DNA from: Chryseobacterium sp.
GTDB taxonomy: Bacteria; Bacteroidota; Bacteroidia; Flavobacteriales; Weeksellaceae
Direction: 5' to 3'
Length of the DNA stretch: 64,000 nucleotides
Assembly: GCA_027492795.1 (NCBI GenBank)
Contig: JAPUEB010000024.1
Coordinates: 124,001-188,000 of the forward strand
Part shown: in pieces, positions 34,410-36,818 of the stretch
Numbering within the stretch: position 1 is the first letter of the stretch
Layout: every line of letters starts with the position of its first letter
Program-made: the position numbers and the translations under genes
The notes under the pieces: model-generated
The model's input: only the letters and a program-made list of their open reading frames with translations
What the model was told of the DNA's origin: nothing
Database searches by the model: none

Positions 34410-34497
34410 TTTGTCATTCTGAATGAATCCCGAAACTTCGGGAGTAATGAAGAATCTTTTTTATAATGAGATTCCTCGTTACACTCGGAATGACAGC
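34410..34497. repeat. GTCATTC palindromic element C
   Basis: Left arm begins TTTGTCATTCTGAATGAATC. Right arm AGATTCCTCGTTACACTCGG followed by AATGACAG is its partial reverse complement. It is a longer relative of elements A and B that flank the GIY-YIG gene 1.4 kb downstream. Confidence 0.75.
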
Positions 34498-34744: not shown

Positions 34745-35821
34745 ATGGAAAATCAATTTATAGGAAATAATAACTTCACAATTTCCAACCAAACCGTTTC
34801 TGCAAGTTGTCCAAGCAACATTGCGCTCATCAAATATTGGGGAAAATACGCCAATCAAATTCCCGCTAATCCAAGCATCAGTTATACTTTAAATAATTGC
34901 AAAACCAATACTTCCATTGAATTTTTTACGGATGAACCATTTTCTGTTCAAACCTTTTTATCAGGAAATGAAGAAGTAAAATTTGCCGAAAAAATTTCAA
35001 CATATTTCAAAAACAGTGAAGTGTATTTGCCTTGGATTTTAAAAGGAAAATATATCATAAAAACCGAAAATACCTTTCCGCACAGTTCGGGAATTGCAAG
35101 TTCGGCTTCCGGTTTCGGCGCAATTGCAAGTTGTTTGATGGAATTGGATAAATTATTTTCATCAGAAAATACAGAATCATTTATCAATCATCATTCATCA
35201 TTTATCTTAAAGAAAGCATCATTCCTCGCAAGATTGGGAAGCGGAAGCGCTTGCAGAAGTCTTTATAACGGACTTGTAGTTTGGGGCGAAACCCCTGAAG
35301 TTGAAGGAAGTTCCGACCTTTTTGCTGTTCAATATCCAAATGAAGAAGTGCATCCGATTTTCAAAAATTTTAATGATTGGGTTTTGCTCATTCACGAAGG
35401 TCAAAAATCGGTAAGTTCTACGGTTGGTCACGGTTTGATGAATACGAATCCTTATGCAGAACGACGTTTTCAGGAAGCGCGTGAAAATTTTATTCCATTA
35501 AAAGAAATTCTAAAATCGGGAGATTTAGAGAAATTCATCACGTTGGTTGAACACGAAGCACTCACACTTCACGCAATGATGATGATGAGTGAACCTGCGT
35601 TTATTTTAATGAAAACCGGAACAATGGAAGTCATCAACAAACTGTGGAAATTCCGTGAGGAAACTGGAAATCCGTTGTTTTTTACGCTTGACGCAGGTGC
35701 AAATGTCCATCTTTTATTTCCAGAAAACGAAAATTCCAGAGCCATCAAAGATTTTATTTTAGCAGAACTGCTTCCGCATACACAGAAGGGCGGAGTTGTG
35801 AAGGATTTTATGAGGTTTTAG
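34745..35821 (+). CDS. mvaD: diphosphomevalonate decarboxylase
   Basis: A 358-aa GHMP-kinase-superfamily enzyme that decarboxylates mevalonate 5-diphosphate to IPP, the last step of the mevalonate pathway. ASCPSNIALIKYWGKYANQ near residue 20, the ATP loop HSSGIASSASGFGA (about 116-129) and GSGSACRSLYNGLVVW (about 160-175) are characteristic. Typical for Flavobacteriia, which make isoprenoids through mevalonate. It sits alone after the repeat-rich gap and before the GIY-YIG element. Confidence 0.95.
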   Translation: MENQFIGNNNFTISNQTVSASCPSNIALIKYWGKYANQIPANPSISYTLNNCKTNTSIEFFTDEPFSVQTFLSGNEEVKFAEKISTYFKNSEVYLPWILKGKYIIKTENTFPHSSGIASSASGFGAIASCLMELDKLFSSENTESFINHHSSFILKKASFLARLGSGSACRSLYNGLVVWGETPEVEGSSDLFAVQYPNEEVHPIFKNFNDWVLLIHEGQKSVSSTVGHGLMNTNPYAERRFQEARENFIPLKEILKSGDLEKFITLVEHEALTLHAMMMMSEPAFILMKTGTMEVINKLWKFREETGNPLFFTLDAGANVHLLFPENENSRAIKDFILAELLPHTQKGGVVKDFMRF

Positions 35822-35874: not shown

Positions 35875-35964
35875 AGTTTGTCATTCCGTAGGAATCTCAA
35901 CAGTTTAAAGACATTTTTTATCAATTTTGAAATCATTGTTTAGATTCCTGCGGAATGACAAAGT
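35875..35964. repeat. palindromic element A (left of GIY-YIG gene)
   Basis: Arms 35875-35897 and 35942-35964, 23 bp each with two mismatches, core GTCATTCCG-x-AGGAATCT. The centre is A/T-rich. Ends 25 bp before the GIY-YIG start. Confidence 0.92.
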
Positions 35965-35989
35965 GTATGTTTAAATTTTATTAATAAGT

Positions 35990-36310
35990 ATGATTGAATT
36001 TACTGAAGGTATTTACAAGTTCTATGTTTATATTTTGACTAATAAAAACAAGACCGTATTATATACTGGAGTAACAAACAATCTTCAGCAAAGACTTTTT
36101 CAACACAAAATAAAAAAGAATCCTAACAGTTTTACTGCAAAGTATAATGTGGAGTTTCTAATTTATTATGAAGAATTTGGTTGGATTCAACTCGCAATTG
36201 AAAGGGAGAAAGAAATAAAGAATTTGTCAAGAATTAAAAAATTGGAAATGATTAGAGAGGTTAATCCTAACATGGAATTTTTGAATTATCTTTTTGAAGA
36301 TGCTGTTTAA
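35990..36310 (+). CDS. GIY-YIG nuclease family protein
   Basis: A 106-aa single-domain nuclease of the GIY-YIG superfamily (YhbQ/UPF0213-like group). YVYILTNKNKTVLYTG (about 12-27) holds the GIY and YIG equivalents, VTNNLQQRLFQH carries the catalytic Arg region, and the Glu-containing REKEIKNLSRIKKLEMI (about 75-92) binds metal. The gene is bracketed: element A ends 25 bp upstream and element B starts 18 bp downstream, and both elements are near-identical inverted repeats. This layout resembles REP/RAYT units, but with a different nuclease; the functional link is inference. Confidence 0.9.
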   Translation: MIEFTEGIYKFYVYILTNKNKTVLYTGVTNNLQQRLFQHKIKKNPNSFTAKYNVEFLIYYEEFGWIQLAIEREKEIKNLSRIKKLEMIREVNPNMEFLNYLFEDAV

Positions 36311-36328
36311 TAAAGTAATAGATAATAG

Positions 36329-36413
36329 AGTTTGTCATTCCGCAGGAATCTCAACGAGTTTTTAATAAAAGTAATGATAATGATTGGTTTAGATTCCTTC
36401 GGAATGACAAACT
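36329..36413. repeat. palindromic element B (right of GIY-YIG gene)
   Basis: Arms 36329-36351 and 36391-36413, 23 bp each with one mismatch. The left arm differs from that of element A at one base. Ends 27 bp before the ATG of the VOC gene. Confidence 0.93.
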
Positions 36414-36440: not shown

Positions 36441-36818
36441 ATGCACATCCATCACATCGCCATCATCTGTTCCAACTACGAAATCTCCAAAAAATTCTAC
36501 ACAGAAGTTTTAGGTTTGAAAATTCTGCGGGAGGTTTACAGAAAAGAACGCGATTCTTGGAAATTGGATTTAGGAATTGGCGAACATTATGTTATTGAAC
36601 TTTTTTCGTTTCCAAATCCGCCAAAAAGATCTTCCAGACCAGAAAGTTGCGGTTTGCGACATCTTGCATTTTCTGTTGATGATGTAGAAGAAAAAAGGAA
36701 CGAATTAATTTTGAAAGGTTTGAAATGTGAGAAAATCAGAATCGATGAGTTTACGGACAAAAAATTCTTTTTCACACAAGATCCTGATGATTTACCTCTG
36801 GAAATTTATGAAAATTAG
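36441..36818 (+). CDS. VOC-family protein (YaeR-like)
   Basis: A 125-aa vicinal-oxygen-chelate/glyoxalase-fold protein of the YaeR/SMU.1112c group. MHIHHIAIICSNYEISKKFY (His4/5 as metal ligands), ELFSFPNPPKRSSRPESCGL and RHLAFSVDD are close to the family consensus, ending PLEIYEN with the Glu ligand. The ATG at 36441 is chosen; a TTG at 36429 in frame is possible but unsupported. Function unproven: relatives are labelled glyoxalase but activity is not shown. Confidence 0.9.
   Translation: MHIHHIAIICSNYEISKKFYTEVLGLKILREVYRKERDSWKLDLGIGEHYVIELFSFPNPPKRSSRPESCGLRHLAFSVDDVEEKRNELILKGLKCEKIRIDEFTDKKFFFTQDPDDLPLEIYEN

Follow-up and report, generated by a model that had tools for sequence, protein, structure and literature searches.

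What does a gene for a GIY-YIG nuclease of 106 amino acids do between two nearly identical palindromic elements? In REP/RAYT systems, a single gene for a Y1 tyrosine nuclease lies between the REP palindromes that this nuclease mobilizes, and the sequence-only reading of the locus proposed that a GIY-YIG enzyme could act in the same role. We consider it probable, at roughly 65%, that the REP-associated GIY-YIG nuclease stands in for a RAYT and mobilizes or maintains the REPINs cognate to it. Comparative tests of that proposal (co-occurrence, repeat numbers, and empty sites) came out in its favor, but repeats also persist in genomes without the gene (G072 and G075). The window, i.e., the whole stretch of 64,000 nucleotides that was analyzed (C24:124001-188000 of the 2.96-Mb draft genome G000), has the following features at and around the gene:

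34413-34494, no strand: REPIN of class B, between an acyl-CoA ligase gene and mvaD
34745-35821, + strand: mvaD, the upstream neighbor and the anchor of the empty-site comparison
35875-35964, no strand: REPIN A, two inverted TGTC-tagged REP arms at 35880-35896 (+) and 35943-35959 (-)
35990-36310, + strand: GIY-YIG nuclease gene, 106 amino acids, single domain
36329-36413, no strand: REPIN B, arms at 36334-36350 (+) and 36392-36408 (-)
36441-36818, + strand: VOC-family gene, the downstream neighbor, which directly follows mvaD in relatives without the unit

The bracketing of the gene by two palindromic elements was confirmed in both coordinates and spacing, with 25 bp between REPIN A and the gene and 18 bp between the gene and REPIN B. 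The left arms of the two elements, which had been described as near-identical, agree at 26 of 27 positions, and within each element the arms pair with few mismatches. The two REPINs share the same orientation and are both pairs of inverted GTCATTCCGNAGGAATC arms; the arm reads TTTGTCATTCCGNAGGAATCT(C/A)AAC, and the tails of REPIN A are TCTCAAC and TCTAAAC. Given that each arm forms a short hairpin of its own (ATTCC-GNA-GGAAT, with a stem of 5 bp and a loop of 3 bases) preceded by an unpaired TGTC tag, the elements are REP dimers in head-to-head arrangement, or REPINs. The tag on the window REPs is TTTGTC (consensus, TTTGTCATTCC), and each of the two REPINs has a predicted folding energy of about -37 kcal/mol. 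Searches of Rfam with the window repeats returned only subthreshold matches to microRNA hairpins. The window had been said to contain three or more further relatives or halves; one clear element was found, at 34413-34494, which is of another REP type, and the rest are weak matches. That element (GTCATTCTGAATGAA...GAAGAATC / GTCATTCCGAGTGTAACGAGGAATC) is not cognate to the window nuclease and resembles the flanks of the two other small GIY-YIG genes of the genome.

The protein encoded between REPINs A and B matches the Pfam GIY-YIG family (PF01541) with an E value of 6e-16 and a score of 58.9 bits (cut-off, 22.6), and the catalytic residues Y14, Y25-x-G27, R35, H39, and E73 are invariant in 25 relatives. 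Its AlphaFold2 model (pLDDT, 91.6) is a bare GIY-YIG domain, for which UPF0213 and SLX1 are the closest solved folds. Small GIY-YIG proteins of the UPF0213 type (BH0048 and EF2693) likewise consist of a single GIY-YIG domain, and their structures have no function attached. SLX1, a nuclease that cuts branched DNA, also shares this single domain, but it is eukaryotic and acts with a partner, SLX4.

The repeat that flanks the nuclease gene is dispersed genome-wide. A search of the genome with TGTCATTCCNNAGGAATC, allowing up to 2 mismatches, returned 70 matches, 51 of which were exact, compared to 0 for the reversed control; thus, the palindromes exceed what chance would produce. By a strict pattern, 9 intact class A REPINs were counted in this genome and at most 1 in each of 118 other genomes of the family. 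The window gene (alpha) lies between GTCATTCC-type repeats, and the two other small GIY-YIG genes of the genome (beta) lie between GTCATTGCGAGG-type repeats, inverted palindromes of the form GTCATTGCGAGGA...GAAGCAATC on both sides. The genome also carries about 10 copies of a hybrid REPIN (among loci L011-L033, e.g., L013, L015, L018, L021-L024, and L033) with a left arm of GTCATTCCGTAGGAATC, a right arm of GAGATGCTTTCAGCATGACAAAC, and about 30 bp of conserved outer sequence (ctataaacag..GTTTGTC).

Bracketing by inverted, tagged repeats is a property of small GIY-YIG genes well outside this genome. At 58 small GIY-YIG loci of the window's family, the near flanks had a median inverted similarity of 20.2, compared to 11.5 for far flanks (p=1.5e-11) and 13.5 for the flanks beside mvaD, which served as a control. 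A scan of species genomes yielded at least 578 relatives of the nuclease, and flanks were analyzed for 77 of the best 80. Strict CGTC/TGTC hairpins were present on both flanks at 41/77 loci versus 1/70 distal controls and, counted per flank window, in 104/154 near versus 17/140 far windows (p=3e-23), with occurrences in Proteobacteria, Bacteroidota, Armatimonadota, Nitrospirota, Omnitrophota, Chloroflexota, Patescibacteria, and others; the median gap between hairpin and gene was 23 bp upstream of the start codon and 15 bp downstream of the stop codon. Overall, hairpins with a GTC(A) tag bracket small GIY-YIG genes in Flavobacteriia, Alpha-, Beta-, and Gammaproteobacteria, Cyanobacteria, Armatimonadota, Nitrospirota, candidate phyla, and others. 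Tagged REPs also lie beside the gene, mostly on both sides, in a plasmid collection (Planktothrix, Spirosoma, Sinorhizobium, Aeromonas, Shinella, Rhizobium, Azospirillum, Neisseria, Sphingobium, Novosphingobium, and Neorhizobium). The expectation that arms and gene co-occur was borne out by the near-versus-far comparisons at these 58 and 77 loci, and in most genomes the gene adjoins such elements.

Repeat type co-varies with nuclease clade. When mapped onto a tree of 71 nucleases, repeat class required 13 changes, where the minimum is 8 and shuffled labels gave a mean of 48.5 (0/200 as low), in a test that was not blind, as the classes were drawn up after the flanks had been seen. The window's clade forms one group on this tree and is of class A. 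The same co-variation was observed within the genus Neisseria, where nucleases akin to the one of N. gonorrhoeae have dRS3-type flanks and those of G132, G166, G160, G137, and G155 have CGTCATACTCGGGCTTGACCCGAGTAT flanks. The dispersed repeats followed suit in stretches sampled at a distance from the gene: G146, with dRS3 flanks, had 12 dRS3 and 0 ATACTCGGG repeats in 120 kb, and G166 and G132, with ATACTCGGG flanks, had 6 and 5 such repeats, respectively, and 0 dRS3 per 140 kb. The repeats of G119 are mostly GTCATTCCGGC...GCCGGAATC, the same as at its own nuclease, and seven genomes negative for both the nuclease and dRS3 had neither repeat type in 400 kb sampled. The picture is less clean for G137, whose nuclease has the second repeat type, yet 175 dRS3-type arms are found in the genome.

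Element numbers had been expected to scale with the presence of the gene, and they were higher where the gene is present, with medians of 22 versus 4.5 in nuclease-positive and -negative Neisseria genomes (p=0.011) and 21 versus 0 in the window's family (p=3e-6), both statistics ignoring kinship. Strict dependence was not found. REPs were present in genomes in which no small GIY-YIG gene was detected (30 arms in G072, 26 in G075, and 231 in Neisseria G131); thus, copy number is not strictly gene dependent, and the gene is not needed to keep REPs. The REPINs of E. coli likewise persist without a RAYT (PMC8049555).

Empty orthologous sites, which a mobile unit had been expected to leave in relatives, were found at Azospirillum sufB-sufC, in Shinella, and at the mvaD locus. 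Five genomes of four genera carry the nuclease unit at the mvaD locus, in both orientations, and in nine other genomes the VOC gene comes directly after mvaD with no unit. A single genus (g7) has the full unit (G118), a solo REPIN (G102, G048, G093, G110, and G062), a decayed gene (G087), or nothing (G072 and G114) at this spot. In Azospirillum lipoferum 4B, a REPIN-gene-REPIN unit is situated between sufB and sufC, where five congeners have a short spacer; Shinella provides a further empty orthologous site, and REPIN copy number differs at two loci between strains of S. meliloti. No consistent target-site duplication was seen at the orthologous sites, the flanks of which are so diverged that base-exact junctions are unreadable. 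The alpha gene beside mvaD points one way in G000 and G118 and the other way in G115, G030, and G005, a pattern that either flipping between the inverted REPs or repeated insertion would produce. We also observed that Shinella sp. PSBB067 (L216) and A. lipoferum 4B (L209) carry different REP-flanked GIY-YIG genes at apparently the same sufB-sufC junction in two alphaproteobacterial orders.

The window unit resembles REP/REPIN-RAYT (TnpA_REP) systems in that a small, single-copy nuclease gene lies between inverted pairs of tagged REP hairpins, the cognate repeats are dispersed genome-wide, nuclease and repeat types co-vary, and the repeats outlast loss of the gene. It differs in its enzyme, a hydrolytic GIY-YIG nuclease as opposed to a Y1 HUH transposase, and in its tag, TGTC/CGTC as opposed to GTAG; unlike REP/RAYT, GIY-YIG units are also found on megaplasmids and have a patchy distribution. 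REPs with a partner nuclease are known already, and what is new within the literature searched is the GIY-YIG class of enzyme in that role; that literature, outside which lie preprints and most subscription journals, held no paper linking GIY-YIG genes with REPs.

The repeats themselves are partly known. The system had been put forward as possibly a little-described one of Flavobacteriia, but it extends beyond this class, and CGTC-tagged REPs have been reported from five phyla, including dRS3 of Neisseria and RPE-4/6 of Rickettsia, without a dedicated transposase or associated gene and not flanking Y1 genes (Di Nocera 2013, PMC3733652). The window repeats share with them the tag (CGTC, also TGTC/CCTC), the head-to-head dimers, the intergenic location, and the high copy number, but the stem of 5 bp and loop of 3 bases are shorter than the stem of 8 to 9 bp and loop of 4 to 5 bases of the four published families (PMC3733652). 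The repeats of the proteobacterial relatives of the unit do fit these published dimensions, and in A. lipoferum and S. meliloti, two hosts named in PMC3733652, we found the nuclease between such repeats. We regard it as evenly balanced whether the TGTC/CGTC REPs, including dRS3, constitute one supersystem of miniature mobile DNA driven by REP-associated GIY-YIG nucleases, in which hairpin DNA would be transposed or spread by a hydrolytic GIY-YIG enzyme and not by a transposase.

From the observed association and co-evolution, we infer that the GIY-YIG nuclease cleaves REP hairpins and brings about their transposition. The unit would then be the GIY-YIG counterpart of the REP/RAYT 'REPtron,' with a small, single-domain, structure-selective nuclease between inverted TGTC/CGTC REPs, and the solo REPs and REPINs across the genome would be its nonautonomous derivatives. 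The nuclease would recognize its cognate REP hairpin with the tag, probably in single-stranded form or extruded during replication, and nick it next to the GTC. The REPIN freed or broken in this way, or else the unit of REP, gene, and REP, could then be copied into new sites by the repair or replication machinery of the host. The gene may later be deleted when one flanking REPIN recombines with the other, which would leave a solo REPIN behind. The 2013 survey left open which enzyme, if any, moves CGTC-tagged REPs, and a proposed cognate gene makes this question directly testable, since the proteins are small and short oligonucleotides can serve as substrates. If true, this mechanism would represent a second, unrelated solution to REP mobility, would explain many short genes annotated as 'GIY-YIG family' or misannotated as 'excinuclease ABC subunit C,' and would provide a set of related nucleases that are specific for hairpins and come with their matching targets.

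The main rival is homing, in which a selfish, free-standing GIY-YIG endonuclease targets the REP hairpin and inserts at REPs that were spread by another agent. GIY-YIG homing endonucleases are an established kind, with the same catalytic domain in a mobile gene, and homing likewise predicts REP flanks and clade-specific recognition; REPs also exist without the gene, and the alpha gene occurs only with class A-type REPs at its flanks. We nevertheless consider homing unlikely. Another mobilizer of CGTC REPs is not known (PMC3733652), the type of dispersed repeat changes along with the nuclease subclade within one genus (Neisseria), and at many loci single REPs with outward tags border the gene precisely, which is the layout of an autonomous element and not that of a gene splitting a repeat. 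In addition, the 106-amino-acid protein differs from homing endonucleases in being a single domain with no extra DNA-binding domain, and its gene is intergenic, with no intron or intein location, and is flanked by hairpin repeats that recur across its own genome.

It is quite improbable that the REPs belong to the RAYT-like Y1 transposases of the genome and that the GIY-YIG gene is a passenger. The genome does contain 7 Y1 gene matches, and one RAYT-like Y1 gene (L040, G000:C40:16730-17077) has several flanking hairpins (GCATTCCGTAGGAATGTTATC) that share a 13-bp core, ATTCCGTAGGAAT, with the window REP, but their tag is CTATC and not TTTGTC, and the arm itself was found at 0/7 Y1 loci. The Y1 transposases were rejected as partners on this count, with the similar core at L040 as a caveat. 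CGTC REPs are also reported as not flanking Y1 genes (PMC3733652), and other nuclease clades have unrelated cores with the same bracketing. L040 may have a RAYT role for the window's repeat type.

We judged it very improbable that the nuclease is a domesticated host enzyme that resolves hairpins or branches, processing REPs in the service of genome maintenance and no longer transposing them. In favor of this reading, its fold is nearest to SLX1 and UPF0213, the unit is kept at the mvaD locus in several genera, and RAYTs are themselves regarded as domesticated (PMC8049555), but patchy presence, decayed copies (G087; stops), and insertions in conserved operons point to mobility. Ordinary intergenic hairpins, such as terminators or mRNA stabilizers, lying by chance beside a small gene are scarcely credible. 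REPs are indeed frequent in intergenic regions and form strong folds, but the enrichment over the far and mvaD flanks, by which chance or ordinary hairpins were ruled out, the cognate match to the nuclease clade, and hairpins at which no terminator-like T run was found all argue against this reading.

Two clades of small GIY-YIG genes have flanks of another kind. The flanking palindromes of the KGYMYIL clade (L045, L048, L051, L056, and L060) start with GGTG (GGTGnCTGAGC...GTCGAAGnCACC) and not GTCA, which is possibly a further tag class. A deep clade on the tree (L053, L055, L064, and L068) provides an internal contrast, having tRNA 3' ends or nothing REP-like at its flanks. Deep-clade genes beside tRNA 3' ends include L053, L055, and L068 as well as L366-L371 (G066:C224, G078:C22, G050:C1, G105:C1, G025:C13, and G007:C1), and in several genomes they form tandem arrays of 3 to 4 units of about 350 to 490 bp, within which tRNA 3'-end-like sequence is repeated. 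The arrangement in this clade suggests a system of homing or duplication that targets tRNAs.
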